Shown here in pieces: positions 32,717 through 51,181 of a stretch of 64,000 bases of DNA (its first letter is position 1; every line of letters starts with the position of its first letter). The notes under the pieces are model-generated. The model searched no databases and was not told where the DNA came from. It was given only the letters and a program-made list of their open reading frames with translations. The DNA is from Firmicutes bacterium HGW-Firmicutes-8 (GTDB taxonomy: Bacteria > Bacillota > Thermincolia > Thermincolales > UBA2595), in the NCBI GenBank assembly GCA_002840165.1, contig PGZN01000017.1, positions 9,311 through 73,310 on the forward strand, in the 5' to 3' direction. Position numbers and translations under genes: made by a program.

Positions 32717-33559
32717 ATGAAAAACGATAAAAACATAAAGGAAAACTTAAATGTCGAAATCACCTATTGTGTAGAGTGAGGTTTCTTTTCTTCAGCCTCC
32801 AGTTTGGCGGCTGCAATTAAAAACAAATTTGGGATTACTGCGAAACTGATAGAAGGGCATAATGGTATCTACGAGGTGGCTGTGAACGGTAATATGATTT
32901 ACTCAAATCAAGGCGCATGTAGTAAAAGACCGAAGGAAGACGAGATTTTTCAGGAGATCCAAAAACACACAACACCCCTTTCAGTAGAAGATTCTGATAC
33001 GGTATCATCTGATATCTTCGAACAGAGCAGGAGTTTAGACATAGAATTTATGTACCTTGACCTGAGCGTCTGCACATGGTGTCAGTCAACAGAGTCCAAC
33101 CTTGAAGAAGCTATTGCGGAAGTGGCGCTGGTTTTAAAGGCCACCGGCGTAAATGTGAATGTTAAGAAAATACACATTCAATCCGAGGAACAGGCCCGTG
33201 AATTGGGATTTATAAGTTCCCCTACAATTAGAATCAATGGACAGGATATTCAGTTGGATGTCAAAGAATCTTTATGTGATTCTTGCGGTGATTTGTGCGG
33301 AGACAATGTTGACTGCCGTATCTGGACCTACCAGGGCAAGGAATATACGGCTCCACCTAAGGGAATGATTATTGACGCGATATTGAGGGAAGTTTACGGT
33401 GGTTCGAAAAAGAGCGTGGAAACGAGTACTCCTTCGAGGGAAGTGCCAGAGAATCTAAGGAGATTTTTTACGGCTAAAAGCAAGAAGGAAGAAAATGAGA
33501 TTGTTAAAGTTGTGGATAGCTGCTGCAGTCCGTCTTCAAATGATCCTGGCTGCACATGA
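32717..33559 (+). CDS. SelW-like (Rdx) selenoprotein fused to DUF2703
   Basis: 280 residues if the UGA at 32777-32779 is selenocysteine (residue 21). The first 75 residues are an Rdx domain: ITYCVE-U-GFFSSASSLA gives the C-x-x-U redox motif of SelW, and IYEVAVNGNMIYSNQG is the typical C-terminal strand pair. Residues about 110-235 are DUF2703, with CTWCQST, SSPTIRINGQDI, ESLCDSCGDLCG and DCRIW. A Cys-rich tail follows (DSCCSPSSNDPGCT). A hairpin CAGCC...GGCTG at 32793-32813 is a bSECIS candidate. DUF2703 genes often sit in arsenic clusters. Strong GAGGAGG start at ATG 32717. Confidence 0.87.
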
Positions 33560-33572
33560 AAATAGTAAATTA

Positions 33573-33594
33573 CCCGCAGTTTGCGGGTTTTTTT
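33573..33594 (+). terminator. Intrinsic terminator after the SelW-DUF2703 gene
   Basis: CCCGCA-GTT-TGCGGG followed by seven T. It lies between two convergent genes. Confidence 0.9.
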
Positions 33595-33930
33595 ATGTTT
33601 CAATAATCTGTTTCATTACCATTTCTGCTACGGCACCCGTTAATTTAATACAGTGCTCAAGATGTTCAGGATTGCCGAATTCAAAATCTTTGATAAGCAC
33701 CCGGCAGCAGGTGCTGCCAAATTGCTTCTTGAAGTCATCATGCAGCTTTTTAGCAGCTTCAAACATGCCCGGAGTCTCAATCAACGGAGCTTTACGACCA
33801 TATTTTAATCCCAAGGCCATTACGCCTCCTGTCAATGCTCCGCATGTACAACCTGCCATGCCTATACCAACGGGAAAGCCTGAAGCCAGGCACACAGCTT
33901 CCTTAGGCAGAGGGTTGTTAATAAATGTCA
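33593..33930 (-). pseudogene. 5'-truncated C_GCAxxG_C_C family gene
   Basis: The remaining frame (100-112 codons) has GCTCGALTGG, STCCRVL and HLEHCIKLT, the hallmark C_GCAxxG_C_C pattern, but the N-terminal third with its Cys pair is missing, and an in-frame TAA lies just upstream of NNPLPKEA. A GTG start at 33895 is conceivable, so a shortened functional product is not excluded. A complete relative is at 45003. Confidence 0.7.
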
Positions 33931-34044: not shown

Positions 34045-34410
34045 ATGAAAAAAATTGCGGAATTTTACAAAGCATTAGGTGATGAGACCCGGCTAAAAAT
34101 TATTCAGATGCTTACCGAACAAGAGATGTGTGTTTGTGAAATAATAGATAGACTGAATATGTCTCAACCTGCCGTATCCCATCATCTCAAGATTCTTAGA
34201 CAGGCTGGGCTGGTAAAAGACAGCCGGGATGGCAAATGGATCTATTATTCGATTGATGTCGATGTGTTTAAAGACGTTTTTAAAGGAGAAAATACGACAA
34301 TAATTCAAAGTTACGCCGGACCCATAAAGAGAAAAATAGAAAACGTACAACCATCACGGATGAGGACTGATCCATCTTTGTGCGAGAAGCTTACAGGAAA
34401 ACAACGGTAA
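34045..34410 (+). CDS. arsR: ArsR family arsenic repressor
   Basis: 121 residues. EQEMCVCEIIDRLNMSQPAVSHHL carries the arsenite ligands CVC in the third helix of a classical ArsR. It probably binds AACATAT-N12-ATATGTT in front of its own gene and releases it upon As(III) binding. First gene of arsR-acr3-arsD-arsA-arsA-selenoprotein. Confidence 0.93.
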   Translation: MKKIAEFYKALGDETRLKIIQMLTEQEMCVCEIIDRLNMSQPAVSHHLKILRQAGLVKDSRDGKWIYYSIDVDVFKDVFKGENTTIIQSYAGPIKRKIENVQPSRMRTDPSLCEKLTGKQR

Positions 34411-34452
34411 GTTAAAAAAATGTAAGTTAAATATAAAAGGAGGTAATGTCAA

Positions 34453-35523
34453 GTGCAGGAAAAAGAAGCAAAATTATCTTTACTGGATAGGTTATTGACC
34501 CTATGGATTTTTCTGGCTATGGCCATTGGGGTGGGAGTAGGTTATGTTTTTCCAGGGACAGCTGACCTTCTAAATAGAATGTCTGTTGGGACCACATCTA
34601 TACCCATAGCGGCAGGCTTGATAATAATGATGTATCCGCCTTTGGCTAAGGTCAATTACCGTGAACTGGGCAAGGTATTTAAGAACACCAGAGTACTCGG
34701 GTTATCTTTAGTCCAAAACTGGATCATCGGACCTGTGCTTATGTTTGTCCTGGCTATCGTGTTTCTGCGTGGTTACCCCGAATACATGGTCGGTTTAATA
34801 TTAATCGGCTTAGCCAGGTGTATTGCCATGGTTATCGTGTGGAACAGCCTGGCTAAAGGTGACTCGGAATATGCTGCAGCTTTGGTGGCATTTAACTCAA
34901 TATTTCAGGTAATTTTTTATTCTGTTTATGCCTGGGTTTTTATTACCGTTCTTCCCGGGGTCTTTGGGCTGAAGGGGATGGAAGTTGATATTTCCATGGG
35001 TGAAGTAGCCAAGAGTGTCGGTATTTACCTGGGGATACCTTTTGCTGCTGGGATGCTGACCAGGTTGTTCCTGGAACCTGCGAAAGGTAAGGAGTGGTAT
35101 GAAAAGACCTTTGTGCCCAAGATAAGCCCCCTTGCTCTAATCGCCCTTTTGTTTACTATTATAGTCATGTTTGCTTATAAGGGCAGCAATATCGTCAAGC
35201 TGCCGATGGATGTTGTGCGGATTGCCATCCCGTTAATTATTTATTTTTTGGTCATGTTTACAGTATCATTTTTTATCAGCAAAAAGGCCGGGGTCAATTA
35301 TGCTCAAACCACCAGCCTGTCCTTTACGGCGGCCAGCAACAACTTTGAGCTGGCGATCGCTGTAGCGGTAGCAGTCTTTGGCATCAATTCCGGGCAGGCT
35401 TTTGCGGCGGTAATCGGTCCCCTGATTGAGGTACCGGTGATGATTGCTTTGGTTAATGTAGCCCTCAGTTGGGGCAGGAAGTACTTTGACAAAGAAGGCC
35501 ATTCGGTCCGTTCCGCAGGGTAG
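34453..35523 (+). CDS. acr3: Acr3-family arsenite efflux permease
   Basis: 356 residues, ten predicted membrane helices. [12 protein letters not shown] carries the conserved Cys that binds arsenite in Acr3, and the motif [18 protein letters not shown] is typical. Exports As(OH)3 using the membrane potential or, with ArsA, possibly ATP. GTG start with AAGGAGG upstream. Confidence 0.96.
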
Positions 35524-35566
35524 TACCGTATCTAAATTTGTCGATGGAAGAAGAAGGAGAATTGCA

Positions 35567-35881
35567 ATGAAAGTTGAATTTTTTGAGCCTCCGATGTGCT
35601 GCAGCACCGGTCTATGCGGCCCGGCTCCCGATAAGACCCTGGTTCAGTTAGGCCAGGACATAAATAAGCTCAAAGAAAGATTTCCCGGAATCATTATAGA
35701 ACGTTACATGATTACCCAGCAGCCATTGAAGTTTAGAGATAATGAAGAGGTCTACAAACTGGTTAAGGATAACAGCAAAAATATTCTGCCGATCACAGCA
35801 TTAAACGGCAAAGTGATAAAGACCCACAACTATCCCTCTTTGGAAGAAATAATTAAAGCAATCGAAGGTGAAAACAAATGA
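35567..35881 (+). CDS. arsD: ArsD arsenite metallochaperone
   Basis: 104 residues. Early EPPMCCSTGLCGP has the three As(III)-binding Cys (11, 12 and 17 here). It transfers arsenite to ArsA. The ATG at 35567 has AAGGAG upstream; the frame is open to 35486 but without a site. It overlaps arsA by 4 nt (ATGA). Confidence 0.96.
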   Translation: MKVEFFEPPMCCSTGLCGPAPDKTLVQLGQDINKLKERFPGIIIERYMITQQPLKFRDNEEVYKLVKDNSKNILPITALNGKVIKTHNYPSLEEIIKAIEGENK

Positions 35882-36759
35882 CCAAATTTATCTTTTTCTC
35901 CGGGAAGGGCGGTGTGGGCAAGACCTCCATGGCCTGCTCCACCGCAGTATATTATGCTTTGAAAGGTGAAAAAACCCTGATTGTGACAACCGACCCGGCA
36001 TCCAACCTTGCTGATGTTTTTGAACAGGAAATCGGGCATAAGGTTACCAAAATTGACGGGATTGAAAATCTCTGGGCCATGGAAATCAACCCGGATGTGG
36101 CAACGAGGGAATACAAGGAGAACGCCCTGGCCCCCATGCGGGACCTCTTTGACGAAGAAATGCTGAGAGTTGCCGAAGAACAGTTAAGTGGTCCATGCAC
36201 CGAGGAAATGGCCGCTTTTGATAAGTTCATAGATTTCATGGAAGACGATATGTACGAGGTCGTGGTGTTTGACACCGCCCCTACCGGCCATACCATCAGG
36301 CTTTTAGAACTGCCAGTGGACTGGAGCAAACATATCGAGGAAAGCTCCAAAGGGAGTGGACAAACCTGCATGGGACCGGTCCAGTTGATTCAGGAAAGCA
36401 AGCAGAAATATGATGACGCTATTGCCAAACTGAGAGATCCGGCGGTCACCGATTTTGTCTTTGTCCTGCACCCGGAGCAGACGTCCCTGGAGGAGACCAA
36501 ACGGTCTTCCGGTGAACTCGGGGGAATGGGTATCAAGACTACTCATCTCATTATTAATGGGCTAATCCCCGCAGAAGAAGCTGTAAACCCCTTCTTCAAG
36601 CAGAGGTATGAAATGCAGCAGAAACACCTGGCGGAAATCCGCGAAGCTTTTGCCGGAATACCGGCTAAGACCATGGAACTCTTTGACAATGAATTAAAGG
36701 GGCTGGACATGTTAAAAAGATGTGCGCAGAAACTATTTGATGGGGTGGATAACTTATGA
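35878..36759 (+). CDS. arsA: ArsA arsenite-stimulated ATPase, first copy
   Basis: 293 residues, a single ATPase domain. P-loop GKGGVGKTS, TTDPASNLADVF, and the DTAPTGHT switch motif. Classic ArsA is one chain with two such halves; here two separate genes overlap by 4 nt and may form a heterodimer. The Cys in GPCTEEM and others are candidate arsenite ligands. Confidence 0.95.
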   Translation: MTKFIFFSGKGGVGKTSMACSTAVYYALKGEKTLIVTTDPASNLADVFEQEIGHKVTKIDGIENLWAMEINPDVATREYKENALAPMRDLFDEEMLRVAEEQLSGPCTEEMAAFDKFIDFMEDDMYEVVVFDTAPTGHTIRLLELPVDWSKHIEESSKGSGQTCMGPVQLIQESKQKYDDAIAKLRDPAVTDFVFVLHPEQTSLEETKRSSGELGGMGIKTTHLIINGLIPAEEAVNPFFKQRYEMQQKHLAEIREAFAGIPAKTMELFDNELKGLDMLKRCAQKLFDGVDNL

Positions 36760-37658
36760 GTAAACTGGAAGGTCTTTTATATCCGAAACAGGGTCAAAGA
36801 AAAAATATTTTCATTTCCGGCAAAGGCGGCGTAGGCAAGACCTCAGTTGCTTGTATCACCGCAGTAAATTCGGCCAAGAAAGGGTTCAAAACACTGCTGA
36901 TGACCACAGACCCGGCGGCCCATATCGGCAGTGTACTGGATAAACCCGTTTCAGATACCATAACCAAAATCGATGGCATCGACAATCTGTATGCGGTCAA
37001 GATCGACCAGAAGAAGTGCACTGAAGAATATAAAAAGGGTATTCTAGACGATGCCAGAGCCAGGTTTGACCCGAACACAGTACAAGCTATGGAAGAAGAA
37101 CTAAACTCCCCCTGTACCGAAGAAATGGCGGCTTTCCAGAAATTCATCGAATATGCCGGCGGGGACGATTTTCAGGTAATCGTTTACGACACCGCACCCA
37201 CTGGGCACACTTTAAGACTTTTAGAACTGCCGATGGAATGGAGTAAGCAGATTCAGATGAAATCAGGGTTGTCAGTTGAAGCCAGCGAGGAGGACAAAAA
37301 TCAGAAGGAACGCTTTGACCGGGTTATTGAAATGATGAAGAACAAAGAGCTTACCACCTTCGGTTTTGTCATGTACCCGGAGAAGACACCGATTATTGAA
37401 GCCTACCGGGCTTCCGAGGAGCTTAAATCCCTTGGGATAGCGACCCAATTAGTGGTAGCCAACCTGGTCATCCCGGAAGAACAGTGCCAGACCCCGTTTT
37501 TTACCAACAGGAGAAATATGCAGTTAAAATACCTGGAGGAAATAAAGGAACGGTTCGGGGAAGCAGAAATTCTTCAGCTTCCCATGTACTCAGAGGAAAT
37601 CAAAGGCCTGGAGATGCTGTCTGCTATTGCGGGGAAATTATATGAGGGGAGTAATTGA
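36756..37658 (+). CDS. arsA: ArsA arsenite-stimulated ATPase, second copy
   Basis: 300 residues. P-loop GKGGVGKTS (about 24), TTDPAAHIGSVL and DTAPTGHT. It is a clear paralogue of the preceding ArsA and overlaps it by ATGA. SPCTEEM is shared by both copies. Together with ArsD it should drive or couple arsenite efflux through Acr3. Confidence 0.95.
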   Translation: MSKLEGLLYPKQGQRKNIFISGKGGVGKTSVACITAVNSAKKGFKTLLMTTDPAAHIGSVLDKPVSDTITKIDGIDNLYAVKIDQKKCTEEYKKGILDDARARFDPNTVQAMEEELNSPCTEEMAAFQKFIEYAGGDDFQVIVYDTAPTGHTLRLLELPMEWSKQIQMKSGLSVEASEEDKNQKERFDRVIEMMKNKELTTFGFVMYPEKTPIIEAYRASEELKSLGIATQLVVANLVIPEEQCQTPFFTNRRNMQLKYLEEIKERFGEAEILQLPMYSEEIKGLEMLSAIAGKLYEGSN

Positions 37659-40217: not shown

Positions 40218-41012
40218 TTATTTTCTTGCTTCTACGTAGATGCTTACTACATAATCCTGCAGTGACTGGCCTTCTTCCAAACTGTCCAAAACAGCTCTTC
40301 CAATAGGGTCTGTGGTGCCTGGGTCAATACATACGGAGTCATCTTTTTCCATTGTTTTAACATCTGTTAACCCGGAGGCTGTGACAAGCCCCTTATATTC
40401 ATCAACCAGCATGGCGCCGGCAATGCAGCCAACATAGGCCTCCATGCTGGACCTAACTTTTTCCGGCAGTTTTTTAATCAGGGCAATATCTGAGATTGCG
40501 ACTCTTCCACCAGGTTTAAGGACCCGGTTTATTTCTTGAAAGACTCTTGTTTTATCTGCCGACAGGTTGATCACACAGTTGCTGATCACAACATCTACGG
40601 AGTTATCGGCTACAGGCAGGTTTTCTATCTCTCCAAGCCGGAATTCAACATTTTCAAAATTATCTTTCCTGGCGATTGACCTGGCTTTTTCAATCATTTC
40701 CGGGGTCATGTCAACACCGATGATTCTACCTGCCGGGCCTACTTTGGAAGCCGCCAGAAAACAATCAAAACCTGCCCCGGAGCCGAGGTCCAGAACTGTT
40801 TCGCCGGCTCTTAGACCGGCTAGGGCCGTTGGATTTCCGCAGCTCAGGGCCAGATTGGCCTCAGCTGGGATGGCATTGAGTTCGGTCTCTGAATAGCCCA
40901 GAGATTTGGCATATTGGCCTGCATCTCCGCAGCTGCACCCGCAGCCCGACTGCTGTTTGGCGAACAAACCGTAAGCTTCTCTGACAATTTTAGTCGTTTT
41001 GTTTTGATCCAT
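40218..41012 (-). CDS. arsM: ArsM arsenite S-adenosylmethionine methyltransferase
   Basis: 264 residues. VLDLGSGAGFDC is the SAM site. Arsenite-binding Cys are near the N-terminus (GCGCSCGD), at VISNCVINL (about 144) and in EAYVGCIAGA (about 190), as in ArsM. Converts As(III) to methylated forms. AAGGAGG upstream of the ATG. It lies alone on the minus strand next to a repeat-rich gap. Confidence 0.95.
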   Translation of the reverse strand: MDQNKTTKIVREAYGLFAKQQSGCGCSCGDAGQYAKSLGYSETELNAIPAEANLALSCGNPTALAGLRAGETVLDLGSGAGFDCFLAASKVGPAGRIIGVDMTPEMIEKARSIARKDNFENVEFRLGEIENLPVADNSVDVVISNCVINLSADKTRVFQEINRVLKPGGRVAISDIALIKKLPEKVRSSMEAYVGCIAGAMLVDEYKGLVTASGLTDVKTMEKDDSVCIDPGTTDPIGRAVLDSLEEGQSLQDYVVSIYVEARK

Positions 41013-41052: not shown

Positions 41053-41397
41053 AACAACCGCGGAGAGCGCGGAGATAGTGAGATTCACTGGGAATAAGAG
41101 GGCGCGGAGAGTCACTAAAAAACAAACTTTCACGAAGTAGTAGTACAGAGAAGTCGTGATTCACTGAAACAAAGAGACCACGGAGAGTAACCAGTAATAC
41201 TTACCCCCCGGTTCAATTCAGTATCTCCGTACCTTGAGAAGTCATTAAATTTAAAACATATTTACTGCTCGGAAATTCTTACTTTCGGTTTTCTTACTTA
41301 TACAGATGTAACTTCCAGCAATAGTCTATGTTGTCCAAGTTATTTTTTATCTCCGCACTCTCCGCGTTCTCCGCATCCTCTGCGGTCTCCGCGGTTT
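41053..41397. repeat. CGCGGAGAN inverted arms enclosing repeat copy 2
   Basis: The left arm (GCGGAGAGCGCGGAGATAG, 41057-41075) and right arm (CTCCGCACTCTCCGCGTTCTCCGC..., 41351-41396) bracket the 250-bp dispersed repeat. Non-coding. Confidence 0.8.
41113..41350. repeat. Dispersed intergenic repeat, copy 2
   Basis: Matches 40-290 over nearly its whole length (see copy 1). Here it is enclosed by CGCGGAGA arms on both sides, while copy 1 has the arm only on its right. This suggests the arms and core travel together. Confidence 0.8.
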
Positions 41398-41607
41398 TTT
41401 CTGATACAGTAGCACTGTGTTGAGTAGAAAAATAATACCCGTATGAGCTGAAAACTGTTTTTTTATTTTGTTCAATATTTTATTTAAATTACAGCTTACC
41501 TGGGTAGTAGGAACTCAATTTGGGTTGTTGATTTCTCTCTGTGCACTCTATCCAGGTCTCTGTGAACTCTGTGCCTTCTTTTCTTTTGAATTACTTCGCA
41601 GCTTTTT

Positions 41608-41852
41608 AAAACCGCGGAGTTCGCGGAGATAACGGAGCACGCGGAGAAAAAAGAAAACTCATGAAATAGAAACATCAAAACTATGCCGGAAACACTTCAG
41701 TATGTGATACCACTGGCTCTTTGTGATCTTAAGACCTCAAATTCTTCTTTTTGCCCTTAGACCATTGAGCAGTGCCCATTAGTCTTTGTGGTAAAAATGT
41801 CTTTTTATCTCGAATCTCCGCGCTCTCCGCACCCTCTGCGGTCTCCGCGGTT
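41608..41852. repeat. CGCGGAGAN inverted arms, second set
   Basis: Left arm at 41611-41645 (CGCGGAGTTCGCGGAGATAACGGAG), right arm at 41816-41850 (CTCCGCGCTCTCCGCA... to CTCCGCGG). I see no gene in 41400-41900, only these repeats and AT-rich filler. Confidence 0.8.
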
Positions 41853-41917
41853 TTGTTTTATGCTTCCGATTCAATTACATAGAAATATAACTATATGTCG
41901 GGTGAAAAAATAAGTGC

Positions 41918-42190
41918 TTACAGATTAACTTCAAATCTCTTCATGATTTCCTTACAGCAGTCTTCCAGGCAGCAGCAGTCAACAAAATAGTAAACCTGTT
42001 TGCCGACCTTTTTACAGTCGACGAGGCCGGCATTTTTTAAGATGCTGAGGTGATGTGTAATAGAAGGCTGGGCCATCGAAAAGTTGTCAACTATTTCCGA
42101 TACGCACATTTCCTGCTTTTTCAGAAGTTCAATAATTTTTCGCCTGGTCTCATCAGACAAAGCCTTGAAAAACAGCGCGCATTTATCCAA
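41918..42190 (-). CDS. ArsR family repressor
   Basis: 90 residues from the TTG at 42190. KKQEMCVSEIVDNFSMAQPSITHHL keeps only one Cys of the ArsR CVC pair; a Cys-rich end (VDCCCLEDCCKEI) offers other ligands, so the metalloid site differs from the two other ArsR copies. The ATG at 42220 lies at about the transcription start and lacks a ribosome site, whereas GTGAGGTG stands 9 nt before TTG 42190. It diverges from the rhodanese operon. Confidence 0.82.
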   Translation of the reverse strand: MDKCALFFKALSDETRRKIIELLKKQEMCVSEIVDNFSMAQPSITHHLSILKNAGLVDCKKVGKQVYYFVDCCCLEDCCKEIMKRFEVNL

Positions 42191-42210
42191 TCTGATAGTC
42201 ACCTCACAAC

Positions 42211-42261
42211 GTATAGACATATATCTATATGTATTATAAACAAATGTATGGCTTTTGTCAA
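42211..42261 (-). promoter_or_regulatory. Promoter and probable operator of the divergent arsR
   Basis: Minus strand: TTGACA (42256-42261), 17-bp spacer, TATAAT (42233-42238). ACATATAGATATATGT, a near-palindrome at about 42217-42232, overlies the start site and is the likely operator of ArsR. It may also affect the divergent operon. Confidence 0.75.
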
Positions 42262-42406
42262 AAGGTTTTGGATTAATTTGTGATTTGGATTAATTAAATT
42301 AATAGCTCCCGGCAATTCTATAAAAAACTTATATTTGACCTATTCACAATAATTATAATAAAATAATTGTGAAGTAAAAGATGGTAAAGTTAGGGAGGAA
42401 AAGAGG

Positions 42407-43357
42407 ATGAATCTGAAAAAAGCTGTTGCATTTTTATTGGCTGCGATACTTCTTATTTCTGCTGCCGGCTGCGGCGGTGGTACCAGCAAAGCGCCTGAAG
42501 CGAAAAATGCTGTAACCGAAAACAATTCTAAGCCCGAAGATACCAAGAAGGGTGAACTATTTGTAGATGTTCCCTGGCTGAAGGGAAATATGCAGAATGT
42601 TATAGTTCTGGATGCCAGGGTGGACAAAGAATACAATGCCGGACATATTCCCGGGGCCTTCAACGCCATGTGGCAGGGTTTTGCCAATATGGAGGGTAAG
42701 TCGGGCGACCAAGGCTGGGGAACACTGCTTCCCAAGGAAAAGCTGGCCGAAAAATTAGGTGTGTTGGGTATTGACTCAAGTAAAACGGTAATTGTCTATG
42801 CTGACCCCAATGGTTGGGGCGAAGATGGCAGAATCCTTTGGATGCTTAGAATGGCAGGCCTTACTAATACCAAGATGCTTGATGGCGGTTGGCCGGCATG
42901 GAAGACCGCCGGCGGAGAAACAAGCACCGATGTTCCTGCTGCCAAGCCTATTAAACTGCAGATAGCTGCTCTTGACGGGGGTATGAATGCTACTACGGAA
43001 TGGATTAAGGCCAATTCCAACAAAATAAAAATTGTTGATTCCAGGGCTCAAATTGAATTTGGGGGAGCAGCCGATTTTGGCGAAAAGAGGGGTGGACATC
43101 TGCCCGGAGCCATTAATATTCCCTTTAAGGAAGTATTCAATGATGATGGGACTGTGAAAACCACATCGGATCTTAAAGACTTATTCACAAAAGCCGGTCT
43201 TACACCGGAAGATGAGATAGTTACATACTGCACCAAAGGAATCCGGTCAGCTCATATGGCGCTGCTGCTGCGGTCAGCTGGATTTGAAAAAGCCAGAAAT
43301 TATGATGCCTCTTTCTATGAGTGGGCAGGTAATGATTCTCTGCAGGTAGTGAAATAA
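42407..43357 (+). CDS. Lipoprotein with two rhodanese domains
   Basis: 316 residues. The signal peptide ends in a lipobox (LLISAAGC), so the protein is anchored outside the membrane. Rhodanese domain 1 (about 50-165) has ADPNGWGEDGR in place of the catalytic loop and is probably inactive; domain 2 (about 185-312) has the active loop YCTKGIRS. This is the thiosulfate sulfurtransferase layout. First gene of the operon that ends with the radical SAM gene. GGGAGGAAAAGAGG precedes the ATG. Confidence 0.92.
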   Translation: MNLKKAVAFLLAAILLISAAGCGGGTSKAPEAKNAVTENNSKPEDTKKGELFVDVPWLKGNMQNVIVLDARVDKEYNAGHIPGAFNAMWQGFANMEGKSGDQGWGTLLPKEKLAEKLGVLGIDSSKTVIVYADPNGWGEDGRILWMLRMAGLTNTKMLDGGWPAWKTAGGETSTDVPAAKPIKLQIAALDGGMNATTEWIKANSNKIKIVDSRAQIEFGGAADFGEKRGGHLPGAINIPFKEVFNDDGTVKTTSDLKDLFTKAGLTPEDEIVTYCTKGIRSAHMALLLRSAGFEKARNYDASFYEWAGNDSLQVVK

Positions 43358-43362
43358 GCATC

Positions 43363-44073
43363 GTGGCTGTAAACAAAGCCGTCAGGTACTGGCGGCTTGT
43401 TTTGGTTACTTTATTTCTGGCCTGCCTGGCCGGATTATATTTCTTTATACCTTCCTTCTCTAATCAGGTAAGGACCGCCGCAAGTATTTTGTCCCAGGCT
43501 GACATCAAGGGGATGAGAATATATATAAAAGGCTTTGGGGTATGGGGCCCTTTGGTATCGATGGGCTTAATGGTTCTGCAGGCCCTGGCGGCTCCGTTGC
43601 CCGCATTTGTAATTACCTTTGCCAATGCCTGGATTTTTGGCTGGGTGCGGGGCGCCATTTATTCATGGACAGGGGCCATGATTGGGGCTTCCATCTGCTT
43701 TTGGATTGTCAAGGCGTACGGGAGGCCTATCGTGGAAAAACTGGTGGGGAAAAAGAGCCTGGAGATGTCTGACCGGTTTTTTGACCAGTACGGGAGGTAC
43801 TCAATAGTTATTGCCCGGCTAATCCCAGTAGTGCCTTTCGATATAATTTCTTATGCGGCCGGAATAACGCAGATGAGTTTTTGGGGTTTTTTCTGGGCTA
43901 CCGGAATCGGGCAGCTGCCGGCCACGATTATCTACTCCTGGCTGGGAGAAAACATGTCTCCTACGGCCAAGTATGCATTTTGGGCTGTGTGCGGTTTTTT
44001 GGTGCTGTTGTTTTTTAGCCTGGCCATGAAAAAATGGTTCAAATCCAAGTTGGTGAGTGATAACAATGTTTAA
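43363..44073 (+). CDS. TVP38/TMEM64 (DedA-like) membrane protein
   Basis: 236 residues, about six membrane helices, with FANAWIFGWVRGAIYSW and RLIPVVPFDIISYAAG, typical of the VTT domain. Such proteins are thought to act as lipid scramblases or transport factors. The start (GTG 43363) is 6 nt after the rhodanese gene. Overlaps the next gene by 8 nt. Confidence 0.88.
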   Translation: MAVNKAVRYWRLVLVTLFLACLAGLYFFIPSFSNQVRTAASILSQADIKGMRIYIKGFGVWGPLVSMGLMVLQALAAPLPAFVITFANAWIFGWVRGAIYSWTGAMIGASICFWIVKAYGRPIVEKLVGKKSLEMSDRFFDQYGRYSIVIARLIPVVPFDIISYAAGITQMSFWGFFWATGIGQLPATIIYSWLGENMSPTAKYAFWAVCGFLVLLFFSLAMKKWFKSKLVSDNNV

Positions 44074-45025
44074 GAATTTTAACTGGAAACTTAGCCTGCG
44101 CCTGGGAATTTCGATGATTCTGATGGGTTGGTTCGTTTTTTCAATAAATTGGACGGAAATTGGCCGGGCTTTTGCCGTGGTAAGTTATCCTTGGCTTTTG
44201 GCAGCGGTCTTTTGGATTGTCATCGCCGTCGTAGTCAGTGTCCACAAATGGCGGTTAATTCTCCGGGCTCAGGGAATGAGACTGGAGTGGGGAGAGTTGT
44301 GGAGTATATATTGGGCCGGGTTATTTTTTAATAATTTTCTACCATCTGGTATAGGCGGTGATGGGATGCGTATTATCTGGGTCCGTAAAATTACCGGTGA
44401 CGGGCCGGGGGCGGCAGCTTCTGTCGTTACCGAACGTATCCTGGCAGCAGCCGGGTTGGCTTTGGTAGGGTTGTCAGCCTGTCTGCTGAAGGCAAACCCC
44501 AGTCCGGAAATTACAGCACTGTTTGCCCTTCTTCTTCTTGTTAGTCTGGTAGTAGTAGTGTTCATGATGTATGGCCGGCTTCCCGGATTTGTAACGAATA
44601 AGGACAGCAAGATGGCACGGTTTATAACCCTGTTCTCGGGTCACGGGAAACTTTTAGCTGAACACCCGGGGACTGTCATCTCCGTAATTTTATGGTCTGC
44701 GGTATTCCAGCTCTGTGTTGTTGGCGTAAACCACTGTATTTTTAACGGCCTGCATATTGGTCATGTGGGCTGGCTTGAGGCCATGTACGTTATACCGGCA
44801 GTTTCTGCTGCGGCCATGCTGCCTCTTGGTATCAATGGTTACGGCATCAGGGAAGGAGCATACATTACACTTTTGGCGGCCACTGGTGTACCGGCGGCTT
44901 TATCATTTGCGGCGTCGGTAATGTTTGCCTTCCTCGTAAGTATTTTCAGCCTGTGGGGCGGCTGGGTATGGCTCCGCGGCAGGGAGAAAGGAGCATACCG
45001 GGATGTCGGAATCGAAGGCCTCTAA
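44066..45025 (+). CDS. Flippase-like membrane protein (UPF0104, LPG synthase TM region type)
   Basis: 319 residues, eight or more helices. FFNNFLPSGIGGDGMRI and PLGINGYGIREGAY are hallmarks of the family that contains the flippase domain of MprF. It may move a lipid or lipid-linked intermediate. ATG at 44066 with GGTGAG upstream; GTG 44057 is an alternative. Overlaps the next gene by 23 nt. Confidence 0.88.
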   Translation: MFKNFNWKLSLRLGISMILMGWFVFSINWTEIGRAFAVVSYPWLLAAVFWIVIAVVVSVHKWRLILRAQGMRLEWGELWSIYWAGLFFNNFLPSGIGGDGMRIIWVRKITGDGPGAAASVVTERILAAAGLALVGLSACLLKANPSPEITALFALLLLVSLVVVVFMMYGRLPGFVTNKDSKMARFITLFSGHGKLLAEHPGTVISVILWSAVFQLCVVGVNHCIFNGLHIGHVGWLEAMYVIPAVSAAAMLPLGINGYGIREGAYITLLAATGVPAALSFAASVMFAFLVSIFSLWGGWVWLRGREKGAYRDVGIEGL

Positions 45026-45452
45026 GATAGTAAAAGAAACTATGAAACAGGGAAACAATTGCTGTGAAGCTGTACTCCTCGCCTGTAATGAAGTGTGGGA
45101 TCTAAGTTTGGCGGAGGATACCCTTGCCGCGACCGGTTTTTTTGGGCGCGGAATGGGGAGCGGTTGTACCTGCGGCGCCTTGGCTGGGATAATAATGGCC
45201 GCCGGGATTCTTCATCAAAGGCACTCCCGGATGTTAGATGACAGGTTCCCTGCCCGCCTGCATGCTCGTTTTATTGATGAATTTGGCTCAGCCTGCTGCC
45301 GGGTTATCAGGAAAGAACGCCCGCTGTGGCGCAAAAGACATAAACAGGCCTGTATTGATTTGACCAGCTGGACAGTGACAATGCTGATAGAAGAGTGGGA
45401 GGATGCATCCAATGCGGAAATTACGGCTCACCGTGATCATCCCAACATATAA
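45003..45452 (+). CDS. C_GCAxxG_C_C family protein
   Basis: 149 residues with the full cysteine pattern: NNCCEAVLLAC, GSGCTCGALAG, GSACCRVI and HKQACIDL. The family is thought to be a redox or metal-binding protein of unknown activity, common near metalloid and radical SAM genes. AAAGGAG lies 10 nt upstream. Overlaps the glycosyltransferase gene. An incomplete paralogue is at 33593. Confidence 0.88.
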   Translation: MSESKASKIVKETMKQGNNCCEAVLLACNEVWDLSLAEDTLAATGFFGRGMGSGCTCGALAGIIMAAGILHQRHSRMLDDRFPARLHARFIDEFGSACCRVIRKERPLWRKRHKQACIDLTSWTVTMLIEEWEDASNAEITAHRDHPNI

Positions 45453-46122
45453 CGAAGAAGAAAACATAGCCGGTCTTTTAAGCCGGTTAGTAGTTCAGCC
45501 GGATGTTGAAATAATTGTCAGTGACGGGGGCAGCACAGACCATACTGCAGAGGTGTGTGCGCGTTTTCCGGTCACTTTTGTCAGGGGGCGGCTTGGCAGG
45601 GGGAGACAGCTAAATGAAGGAGCATCCAAATCAACAGGGGATGTTCTGTTTTTTTTACATGCTGATTCAATAGTCGAAAACAGGGTTTTCGACGATATTC
45701 CGGCAGCCGTGAAAAGTGGGTTTAGGTGGGGGTGCTGTAACCTGGGGTTTGATCGGCGGGGCCTGGCATTTAAAGCCCTTGCTGCGGCTTCCGGGATGCG
45801 GGCGCGTTTATTCAGCAGCTGCTATGGTGACCAGGGAATTTATTGTGACCGGAACCTGTTCTTTTCGGCGGGCGGCTTTCCGGACATTCCATTTTTGGAG
45901 GACATCTGCTTATCCTCAAAGCTGCGCCGTTACATGTCGGCTTGCCTTTTACCGGGCCGGGTTATAACTTCCGCCCGACGTTTTAGAGAGGGCGGCTTTT
46001 TAAAGACCTTGGTCAAAATGCAGGTAATTAAAATGCTGTTCGCCTTTGGGGTTTCCGCAGAACGCCTCGTTAAGATGTACCACCCCGTTTATAAGGAGGG
46101 CCTATGCGACCGGCAATTATAG
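45412..46122 (+). CDS. Glycosyltransferase, rSAM/selenodomain-associated transferase 2 type
   Basis: 236 residues. Family 2 fold: VIIPTYNEEENI, SDGGSTDHT, GRGRQLNEGA and FFLHADS, all matching TIGR04283. Members are linked by neighbourhood with arsenosugar biosynthesis. The start at 45412 has GGAGG 9 nt upstream. Overlaps the next gene by 19 nt. Confidence 0.9.
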   Translation: MRKLRLTVIIPTYNEEENIAGLLSRLVVQPDVEIIVSDGGSTDHTAEVCARFPVTFVRGRLGRGRQLNEGASKSTGDVLFFLHADSIVENRVFDDIPAAVKSGFRWGCCNLGFDRRGLAFKALAAASGMRARLFSSCYGDQGIYCDRNLFFSAGGFPDIPFLEDICLSSKLRRYMSACLLPGRVITSARRFREGGFLKTLVKMQVIKMLFAFGVSAERLVKMYHPVYKEGLCDRQL

Positions 46123-46778
46123 TGATGAGTAGAGTGCCTCTGCCTGGCCGTACAAAAACCAGATTGATGTCCCACTTAACTGCTGAACAGTGTGCCGGAC
46201 TGCAGTGGGCGATGCTTAGGGATTTGGGACGGGTGCTGGGTCGGCTGGACATTAGTCTAATTGTTTTTTATTGTGACGGGACACCCGGAGAACTTGCCAG
46301 GGTCTTAGGGCCTGGTATATACCTCCCGCAGACAGGCACCAACTTAGGTAAACGCATGGCCACCGCAGTAGACTACTGCTTAAAACAGGGATTTGATCGC
46401 GTTGTTGTGACTGGGACCGATTACCCGGCTTTGCAGCCGGAGGATATCAGACAAGCTCTATCGGCTTTGGGAAAACGGGAAGTTGTTATCGGACCTAGTT
46501 TAGACGGCGGGTACTACCTGCTGGCTGTCAAAAAGCTGTACGCGGAAATGTTTTCGTTAAAAGAATGGTGGACAGACACGGTTTTGCAGAACACCCTCGG
46601 AAATTTGCGGGGAAGCAGTATATCATATTGTTTGCTAAAACCGGGGAGGGACTTGGATACCTTTGAGGATGCCAAGTTTTATTATCAATTAATGTTGAAA
46701 GAGAAAACCGAATTTGAGGTTTTTCCCAATAATACCTTCAGCTACCTGCACGATATTTTTGGACAACCGGAGGTCTAA
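46104..46778 (+). CDS. DUF2064 transferase, rSAM/selenodomain-associated transferase 1 type
   Basis: 224 residues. MSRVPLPGRTKTRL, GTDYPAL and GPSLDGGYYLL are typical of TIGR04282, a nucleotidyltransferase-like fold (CofC/GT-A-like). It is always found beside the transferase 2 type and probably works on the same product. AGGAGGG before the ATG. Confidence 0.9.
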   Translation: MRPAIIVMSRVPLPGRTKTRLMSHLTAEQCAGLQWAMLRDLGRVLGRLDISLIVFYCDGTPGELARVLGPGIYLPQTGTNLGKRMATAVDYCLKQGFDRVVVTGTDYPALQPEDIRQALSALGKREVVIGPSLDGGYYLLAVKKLYAEMFSLKEWWTDTVLQNTLGNLRGSSISYCLLKPGRDLDTFEDAKFYYQLMLKEKTEFEVFPNNTFSYLHDIFGQPEV

Positions 46779-46783
46779 GGAAA

Positions 46784-47656
46784 ATGGAAAAATCCTGTGT
46801 TTTAAAAAAGGTCGTTACCTGCGCAGCTTTGGATGAGCTGTGGCTCCATGTTATTTATAAATGCAACCTGAACTGCCGCCACTGCCTGTTTTCCTGCAGT
46901 CCGGAAAAGGAGGGACCGGGCCACCTTTCCCTAAGGGAAACCGTGAAATATGTGAAGGAGGCCTTGGGCCAAGGGGTACGAGCTATCTATATCACCGGTG
47001 GAGAGCCATTGATATGGCCTTATCTGAATGATTTTTTAAGCTGGTATTACACCCTGGAAAGGGTTGTGCCGTTAACTATCTTAACTAACGGAACTCTGAT
47101 TGGCTTAGAGCAGGCCAGTTTCTTCAGCAGGTTCACTTCTCAGGGGCTAAATCTAAGGGTCAGCCTGGAATGCTATACCAGGGAGAACCACGAGGAATAC
47201 CGGGGCGCCGGAAGTTTTTCTCGGGCTATACAGGGAATTAAGAACCTGAATACCTGCGGAATCCGGCCGTGGGTGGCTTATGTTAATAAATCGGGGGGCC
47301 GCTTGGGCAGCAGCCCATCACAAAAACTTGAAGATGATTTCCGGCAAAGACTGAATGCAGACCACGGGCTGCAGATTGCTGGTTTGAAGATTATTGCCGC
47401 ATACGCCAAAGGAAGGTTTGCCGGTCTTGTGCAACCTGAAGTAACTTTAGAGCAGGTTGCGGAAAAAATGGATTGTCTCCAGTGTACATATGGAGTCGCG
47501 GTTAGTAAGAATGGGATGTTCCCCTGCCCTGTGCTGGTGGATGTACCCCAGGCTGCGATGGTGGGGTCTTTAAAGGAAGTGGTGGGGAAATCGTTTACCC
47601 TAAACTATGATTTTTGCATCAGCTGTTTTGCCACCGGTACAACTTGCGGACAGTAA
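46784..47656 (+). CDS. Radical SAM protein
   Basis: 290 residues. Cluster motif CNLNCRHC near residue 27, GGEPL at about 73, and a C-terminal Cys-rich part (CLQCTYG, PCPVLV, CISCFATGTTC), like a short SPASM-type auxiliary cluster site. It resembles peptide- or cofactor-modifying radical SAM enzymes, not ArsS itself, which has a selenodomain. Last gene of the seven-gene operon. Confidence 0.9.
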   Translation: MEKSCVLKKVVTCAALDELWLHVIYKCNLNCRHCLFSCSPEKEGPGHLSLRETVKYVKEALGQGVRAIYITGGEPLIWPYLNDFLSWYYTLERVVPLTILTNGTLIGLEQASFFSRFTSQGLNLRVSLECYTRENHEEYRGAGSFSRAIQGIKNLNTCGIRPWVAYVNKSGGRLGSSPSQKLEDDFRQRLNADHGLQIAGLKIIAAYAKGRFAGLVQPEVTLEQVAEKMDCLQCTYGVAVSKNGMFPCPVLVDVPQAAMVGSLKEVVGKSFTLNYDFCISCFATGTTCGQ

Positions 47657-47658
47657 AC

Positions 47659-47727
47659 AAAAGAGAACAAGGGGCGGTTCCGGTTCCCAGAAGTTCCACT
47701 GGGTCAGACCGTACCTGTCTCTTTTTT
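47659..47727 (+). terminator. Intrinsic terminator of the rSAM operon
   Basis: Nested stem: AAAGAGA pairs with TCTCTTT, with an inner CGGT-CCCAG...CTGGG-ACCG, followed by TTTTTT. The central match is imperfect. Confidence 0.7.
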
Positions 47728-47782: not shown

Positions 47783-47811
47783 TTGACATTAATAGGCGGT
47801 TATGCTAAGAT
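47783..47811 (+). promoter_or_regulatory. Promoter of the Rrf2/iscS/iscU genes
   Basis: TTGACA, 17-bp spacer, TAAGAT. The downstream stretch ATAATCC...AGGGATT may hold the binding site of the encoded Rrf2 protein. Confidence 0.75.
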
Positions 47812-50029: not shown

Positions 50030-51181
50030 ATGCCAAAGAAAAAAGTCGTGGTTGCTATGAGCGGCGGTGTGGATAGTTCTCTCACGGCCGCTCTGCTGCG
50101 AGACGAGGGATATGAGGTAATTGGAGTCACTATGCAGATATGGCCTTCAGACGACCCGGAGAAAGAACTCGATCAGGGCGGCTGCTGTTCCCTGTCTGCC
50201 GTAAATGATGCCCGGCGGGTAGCAGATACGTTGGGGATTCCTTTTTATGTGATGAATTTTCGGGAACTGTTTGAACAAAAGGTTATTGACCTGTTTATTG
50301 ACGAATACCTGGCAGGGCGCACCCCTAACCCATGTATAGCCTGCAACAGGTTTATTAAGTTCGATGCCTTTTTAACCAAGGCAGTAGCTTTGGGGGCTGA
50401 TTACATAGCAACCGGGCACTATGCCAGGCTGTCCTTTGACGCCGGCCGGGGCCGGTACCTAATCAGGAAAGCCAGGGATGACAGGAAAGACCAGACCTAT
50501 GTGCTGTATAATATGACCCAGGAGCAGCTCAGCAAAACCCTTATGCCCCTCGGAGAATATAAAAAGGATGAAGTTCGCCGGATGGCTGCTTCATATGACC
50601 TGAAGGTGGCAGATAAGCCGGAAAGCCAGGAAATCTGCTTTGTCACAGACAATGATTATCACCGGTTCCTGCGCGAAAAGGTAGGCGCGAAGATAAGACC
50701 CGGCCCTTTCCTCGGCACGGGTGGTAACGTATTGGGGCGCCATCAGGGACTGGCGTATTACACAGTGGGCCAGCGCAAAGGCCTGGGGATAACCTTCGGC
50801 GAGCCAATGTATGTAGTTGCCCTCGACCCAAGTAGAAACGCGGTAATTCTGGGAAGGGAAAATGAAGTCTTCGGTCGTGAACTAGTGGCTGCAGACAACA
50901 ATTTTATTTTGTATGAAGGTGTCAGCTCCCCGCTTGCTGTTCAGGCTAAAATCCGGTATGCCGCCAGGCCTGCGGAAGCCATACTTTATCCGGGTTCGGA
51001 CGGTTCAGTTAAAATAAGTTTTACTGAGCCGCAAAGGGCTATTACACCGGGCCAGGCGGTGGTTTATTACGAAGGGGATTATTTGGTTGGGGGAGGAACA
51101 ATCACGAGTGGAGAGTGGAGAGTGGAGAGTGGAGAGTGGAGAGTGGAGAGTGGAGAGTGGAGAGTAGAGAGTAGAGAGTAA
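50030..51181 (+). CDS. mnmA: tRNA 2-thiouridylase MnmA with a repeat-encoded tail
   Basis: 383 residues. PP-loop SGGVDSS, NPCIACNRFIKF with the first catalytic Cys, and ESQEICF with the second. It makes s2U34 in tRNA with sulfur from IscS. The normal protein ends near GGGTI (about residue 359); the last 24 or so codons are GGAGAGT repeats giving the 7-residue unit SGEWRVE three times. So the natural stop has been lost by repeat insertion or growth. AAGGTGATATT before the ATG. Confidence 0.95.
   Translation: MPKKKVVVAMSGGVDSSLTAALLRDEGYEVIGVTMQIWPSDDPEKELDQGGCCSLSAVNDARRVADTLGIPFYVMNFRELFEQKVIDLFIDEYLAGRTPNPCIACNRFIKFDAFLTKAVALGADYIATGHYARLSFDAGRGRYLIRKARDDRKDQTYVLYNMTQEQLSKTLMPLGEYKKDEVRRMAASYDLKVADKPESQEICFVTDNDYHRFLREKVGAKIRPGPFLGTGGNVLGRHQGLAYYTVGQRKGLGITFGEPMYVVALDPSRNAVILGRENEVFGRELVAADNNFILYEGVSSPLAVQAKIRYAARPAEAILYPGSDGSVKISFTEPQRAITPGQAVVYYEGDYLVGGGTITSGEWRVESGEWRVESGEWRVESRE

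Follow-up and report, generated by a model that had tools for sequence, protein, structure and literature searches.

What does a radical SAM (rSAM) enzyme do in a run of genes that also encodes two transferases of families named for arsenosugar synthesis? The window, by which we mean the whole 64,000-nucleotide stretch of DNA analyzed here, poses this question. ArsS has been reported as the arsenic adenosylating enzyme in oxo-arsenosugar synthesis (PMC12159101). In the literature searched, we found neither a description of the steps after ArsS in arsenosugar or arsenolipid synthesis nor a functional study connecting TIGR04282, TIGR04283, DUF2064 or TVP38 with arsenic. The name "arsenosugar biosynthesis glycosyltransferase" given to TIGR04282 and TIGR04283 proteins appears to rest on association.

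An original prediction, made from the nucleotide sequence, had described a seven-gene operon with a divergent arsR gene at its head. All seven open reading frames were confirmed (42407-47656, +) in the order two-domain rhodanese lipoprotein, TVP38, LPG-type flippase, C_GCAxxG_C_C, TIGR04283, TIGR04282 and radical SAM, and the genes overlap or lie 5 bp apart (successive distances of +5, -17, -23, -50, -19 and +5 bp). The arsR gene stands where it was said to be, and NCBIfam and Pfam agree with the predicted family names for every gene (Table 1). A candidate promoter precedes the first gene, and a terminator-like stem follows the last; the next promoter-like site, at 47783, lies ahead of an iscR-like regulator gene downstream. 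Within coding sequences, promoter-like consensus matches occurred at about the chance rate. Judged by spacing and flanking signals, the seven genes likely form one operon. A hairpin-like site at 43376-43398, within the start of the TVP38 gene, is a possible attenuator or a chance occurrence.

Table 1. Features of the seven-gene operon and its surroundings (window positions; scores in bits with model cut-offs in parentheses)
Feature	Position	Strand	Evidence
Arsenic resistance operon arsR-acr3-arsD-arsA-arsA	34045-37658	+	Family models
arsR	34045-34410	+	
acr3	34453-35523	+	461.7 (282.8)
arsD	35486-35881	+	103.8 (90)
Two arsA genes	35878-36759, 36756-37658	+	
ArsM arsenite methyltransferase	40218-41012	-	NF008823 326 (263)
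ArsR-family repressor, divergent	41918-42220	-	NF033788 88.7 (55)
Palindrome ACATATATCTATATGT covering arsR start	42217-42232		
arsR promoter TTGACA-N17-TATAAT, sigma-A-type	42233-42261	-	Consensus scan, 12/12
Candidate operon promoter TTGACC-N18-TAAAAT, 5' of first gene	42335-42364	+	Consensus scan
Palindrome TTCACAATAATT-N7-AATAATTGTGAA	42343-42373		Overlaps candidate operon promoter
Lipoprotein with two rhodanese domains	42407-43357	+	PF00581 119
TVP38/VTT (DedA-like) membrane protein, GTG start	43363-44073	+	PF09335 108
Flippase-like membrane protein (LPG synthase TM domain), GTG start	44057-45025	+	PF03706 134; TIGR00374 44.9 (43.2)
C_GCAxxG_C_C family putative redox/metal protein	45003-45452	+	TIGR01909 63 (47); PF09719 74
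TIGR04283 family GT2 glycosyltransferase	45403-46122	+	219.3 full length (182)
TIGR04282 family CofC-like nucleotidyltransferase (DUF2064)	46104-46778	+	171.8 full length (134)
Radical SAM protein, window type	46784-47656	+	CX3CX2C at C27-C31-C34; C-terminal C234, C248, C278, C281, C288
Terminator-like stem and U-tract, 3' of rSAM gene	47659-47727	+	-26.5 kcal/mol, z -1.78

Are the transferases likely to be active? The two genes are adjacent, both products score above their family cut-offs and retain the residues expected for catalysis, and they are accompanied in the window by no ArsS. The GT2 protein was modeled with a pLDDT of 93.5 and has NDP-sugar GT2 enzymes as its closest folds. The CofC-like protein has 3cgx as a structural relative, and its K18, R20, D106, D134, D183 and D185 are unchanged across 17 homologues. 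The rhodanese lipoprotein carries a lipobox Cys22 and a catalytic-type Cys275 in its second domain; its nearest solved structures are sulfurtransferases. By homology, the flippase-like and TVP38 proteins may act in membrane transfer, and the parts that the rhodanese and C_GCAxxG_C_C proteins would play are read in the same way. The words "lipid" and "membrane transfer" in the original prediction are carried by the TVP38 and flippase homologies and have no other basis.

That prediction had mentioned neither the arsenic resistance operon 5 kb upstream nor the arsM gene beyond arsR. The acr3 and arsM genes are the sole copies found, at the thresholds used, in the 2.66-Mb source assembly (about 91% complete), and neither is more than about 7 kb from the seven-gene operon. 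Hence, the operon sits in an arsenic island. The arsR-acr3-arsDAA operon of the same island is an ordinary efflux system with its own transcription unit. Beside it lies a second C_GCAxxG_C_C gene (33593-33895, -), whose frame starts at profile position 26 and may lack its N terminus. A protein encoded at 32804-33559 (+) shows sub-cut-off matches to models of the DF family and of SelT/SelW/SelH-type (seleno)proteins.

We wondered if ArsR might control the seven genes. The divergent repressor has a Cys-rich C terminus (C82-84, C88, C89). The palindrome covering the arsR start has a two-mismatch copy at 41883-41898, and 5 strand-wise matches were counted, self-complementary ones included, against 0.49 expected. 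It is not found at the operon promoter, where a different palindrome lies. ArsR could plausibly regulate the operon, although no shared site supports this. Copies of a CTCTGCGGTCTCCGCGGTTTT-type repeat, in direct and inverted orientation, are scattered over 41056-41870 between arsM and arsR.

Does the gene set recur? Genome-wide statements here rest on family searches, and partner-gene content comes from comparing the regions around TIGR04282/TIGR04283 genes with the window proteins. Both families scored above cut-off in the identical 13 of 149 genomes of the phylum (hypergeometric 6e-19); the distance between the two genes was 14-39 bp in ten genomes and 1.1 kb in another, and in two they lay on separate contigs. 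A larger sample of 398 genomes gave 26 above cut-off and 31 at E 1e-20. Alongside the pair, many cassettes hold genes for rhodanese, TVP38, flippase and C_GCAxxG proteins in variable order, and some also one for a YdjY-domain lipoprotein. A search for the same set in other genomes, which the original prediction had proposed as a check, supports its recurrence. A small membrane protein also recurs in cassettes (L032 7271-7705, L117 7110-7313, L120 5858-6244); the L032 copy matched nothing in Pfam or NCBIfam.

Which enzyme fills the rSAM slot differs among genomes: 11 have ArsS, 5 the window type, 4 a BioB-like rSAM (52 bits against the BioB model, cut-off 225) and 8 none. Every sampled ArsS genome has the cassette (p about 5e-6), and all five genomes of the 398 that match the window-type profile have TIGR04282 (p about 2e-6). 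One of the genomes counted, G087, was given little weight: its window-type rSAM (L116 5454-6322) is split over two frames and its CofC-like gene is only a fragment, so this cassette is probably decaying. A contig end truncates G262, which was left out of the typing. Six of the eight cassettes without an rSAM have an APH-type kinase and two have neither. Most of the kinase forms have an ABC importer and two have a nucleoside hydrolase; G138 was counted among them by its gene make-up, with no importer seen in the stretch examined. Loci L114, L115, L121, L134, L137 and L142 are such rSAM-less cassettes with a kinase and, mostly, a spermidine-like ABC importer, possibly a salvage form. We conclude that, among TIGR04282/TIGR04283 (arsenosugar-type) cassettes, the window operon is a variant whose rSAM is uncharacterized. 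That the transferases and membrane proteins stay constant while the rSAM is exchanged marks the genes of a shared downstream pathway and offers three rSAM enzymes for comparison.

Perhaps the window rSAM is simply a divergent ArsS? It scores 77.8 bits against the ArsS model TIGR04167 (cut-off 300), over residues 14-227 only. In a tree of 50 sequences, the 22 ArsS rows fall on one side of a branch with support of 100/100, and the window type forms a group of its own with 4 members, with weak support for a position beside ArsS (84/50). The sub-cut-off score and separate clade rule this identity out, in line with the predicted "not an obvious ArsS." Membership of the Rv1681 family (NF049973) was likewise rejected (94.5 bits against a cut-off of 380, core domain only), and the protein matches Radical_SAM, with no NCBIfam model scoring above its cut-off. 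Canonical SPASM rSAMs have a seven-cysteine C-terminal motif; the window enzyme, with just five conserved C-terminal cysteines, is not one of them. The comparison with ArsS and SPASM families that had been called for places it outside ArsS and the canonical SPASM type.

The window rSAM nevertheless resembles ArsS in several respects. Profile alignment showed the two to be co-linear across the entire protein length, and in the middle segment (residues 119-225) 96 columns matched ArsS compared to 44 for generic SPASM proteins. Both have CX3CX2C, five C-terminal cysteines and an LE-x-DFR/Y...GRF middle segment, and they occupy the same place in the TIGR04282/TIGR04283 cassette. Their identity, however, is 22-26%, and the C-terminal part is shorter in the window type. 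The eight cluster cysteines (C27, C31, C34, C234, C248, C278, C281, C288) do not vary among 13 sequences drawn from the window type, from ArsS and from a proteobacterial rSAM type found beside GT2 genes. Together, the full-length alignment, the ArsS-like middle segment and the common cysteines make the window rSAM a candidate substitute for ArsS. Its AlphaFold model (pLDDT 71) confirmed the core and left the C-terminal half mostly at low confidence; a fold search returned generic radical SAM folds only, including SkfB and SuiB.

Two further groups of rSAMs bear comparison. The N type of Nitrosomonas and relatives (L042, L049, L035, L043) shares with the window rSAM an ALDELWLH start and a C-terminal CxxCFxxGxxC, but is about 25% identical and has another middle segment. 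It lies next to GT2 genes and, in Nitrosomonas, ArsM (gene order GT2-ArsM-rSAM-TVP38); no flippase or C_GCAxxG gene was found adjoining it. The second group comprises rSAM-ArsM domain fusions of about 1035-1060 amino acids (L036, L038 386-3502, L039, L045, L046, L048, L050, L054), mostly from Desulfobacteraceae/Desulfocapsaceae-like bacteria. These share the rSAM core with its HCLFSCS motif; in contrast to the window enzyme, fusions such as L036 and L038 (about 1035 amino acids) are joined to ArsM and an MbdU-like part, and their rSAM C-terminal domain is unlike that of the window type. In L038, the MbdU-like part is C-terminal, and CofC-like and GT2 genes lie downstream.

Is arsenic the substrate? 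The original prediction had proposed a sulfur- or arsenic-containing lipid or glycoconjugate. The arsenic setting proved stronger than it had stated, with arsR-acr3-arsDAA and arsM within 9 kb. Elsewhere, one ArsS cassette (G308) ends in rhodanese-arsR-nitroreductase-arsM (the third a nitroreductase-like gene), and in G237 an arsR-acr3 pair lies about 5 kb from the GT2 gene of the cassette. arsM or acr3 was found near cassettes 4 times compared to 0.39 expected (p = 0.0007), in a comparison chosen after seeing the data. Yet genomes differ in whether they bear out the link to arsenic. ArsM failed as a marker of every cassette: two models found none in G002, the closest complete relative (100% complete, with a cassette and a 61% identical rSAM), and it was undetected in 8 of the 11 ArsS-cassette genomes. 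An obligate arsenic role is hence disfavored. ArsM was present in 6 of 15 cassette genomes and 32 of 134 others (p = 0.21), which is not a significant enrichment. With ArsM missing from many cassette genomes and not significantly enriched, we judge it about as probable as not that arsenic is what the cassette handles. ArsM-less genomes could use methylarsenicals from neighbors or an unrecognized methyltransferase, or handle something else. These counts also counsel caution, as the database name "arsenosugar biosynthesis" has been given to many genomes without a detectable arsenite methyltransferase. The predicted sulfur option has the rhodanese lipoprotein alone in its favor, and many cassettes lack that gene.

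We propose, with a probability of roughly one half, that the recurrent cassette produces, for export, a glycoconjugate built on a 5'-modified ribose and most likely organoarsenical, and that the window uses an alternative ArsS-like rSAM. Arsenite would be methylated by ArsM, and the rSAM, in the slot that ArsS fills in sister cassettes, would attach the arsenic, through a carbon-arsenic bond, to a 5'-deoxyadenosyl group or one like it. Housekeeping phosphorolysis would remove the adenine and leave a sugar-1-phosphate, which the CofC-like enzyme could convert to a nucleotide sugar; the GT2 enzyme would then transfer the sugar, with glycerol, a phospholipid or a polyprenyl phosphate as conceivable acceptors. 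Passage of the product over the membrane might fall to the flippase-like and TVP38 proteins, and redox or sulfur chemistry to the C_GCAxxG protein and to the rhodanese lipoprotein on the outside. The route of sugar activation is suggested by the kinase and nucleoside hydrolase of some cassettes, which would take a nucleoside to free sugar, sugar-1-phosphate and, through the CofC-like enzyme, a nucleotide sugar for GT2 transfer. Forms with an rSAM would make the nucleoside in-house and rely on a housekeeping phosphorylase.

This pathway is supported by the recurrence of TIGR04282 and TIGR04283 with the same partners, ArsS among them in some cassettes, by the co-linearity and common cluster cysteines of the window rSAM and ArsS, and by ArsM fused to or next to related rSAMs and acr3 and arsM near the operon. 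It is weakened by the ArsM-less genomes described above, by an rSAM model whose C-terminal half is mostly of low confidence, by the absence of the ArsR palindrome from the operon promoter and by the fact that ArsR-like genes adjoin just a few other cassettes. A bolder version, tentative and on balance doubtful, is that the window rSAM joins carbon to arsenic (or another element) by a non-ArsS reaction, leading to an undescribed class of exported organoarsenical glycoconjugates or lipids in anaerobic bacteria, with ArsS, BioB-like and window-type enzymes as alternative entries to one downstream pathway.

Could the product instead contain no arsenic? The cassette might make and export a glycoconjugate whose 5'-modified nucleoside or sugar bears sulfur or selenium or is simply deoxy, with the ars genes as neighbors by chance or through shared stress. 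This is possible, if on the unlikely side. The ArsM-less majority of cassette genomes, G002 and most ArsS carriers included, would fit, as would the rhodanese lipoprotein of several cassette forms; the rSAM-less forms with kinase, mostly importer and some hydrolase are as expected for modified-nucleoside salvage. It sits poorly with arsM and acr3 near cassettes above expectation, with ArsS in the same slot and with ArsM beside or fused to related rSAMs.

ArsS in that slot would also go unexplained if the operon were an envelope module, with TVP38 and the flippase serving to recycle polyprenyl phosphate carriers or flip them, the two transferases adding to a surface glycan and the rSAM altering the sugar. 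The TVP38 protein does match UptA, weakly (56 bits, below the cut-off of 250), and the GT2 fold resembles surface-glycan enzymes, but genes for a polymerase, a ligase or sugar biosynthesis are missing from the operon, and we consider this improbable. An rSAM acting as a peptide maturase of SPASM type, with no connection to the transferases, would account for the core domain, which scores with SPASM maturases, and for SkfB and SuiB among the nearest folds. Set against the five C-terminal cysteines, the lack of any noted precursor peptide gene and a transferase cassette in all window-type genomes, it is very unlikely. Among these readings, we favor the pathway to an exported, probably arsenic-containing glycoconjugate. 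Downstream of the operon, a separate observation is an MnmA-like gene (50030-51181, +) whose end encodes the peptide SGEWRVE repeatedly, probably through in-frame reading of a tandem repeat.
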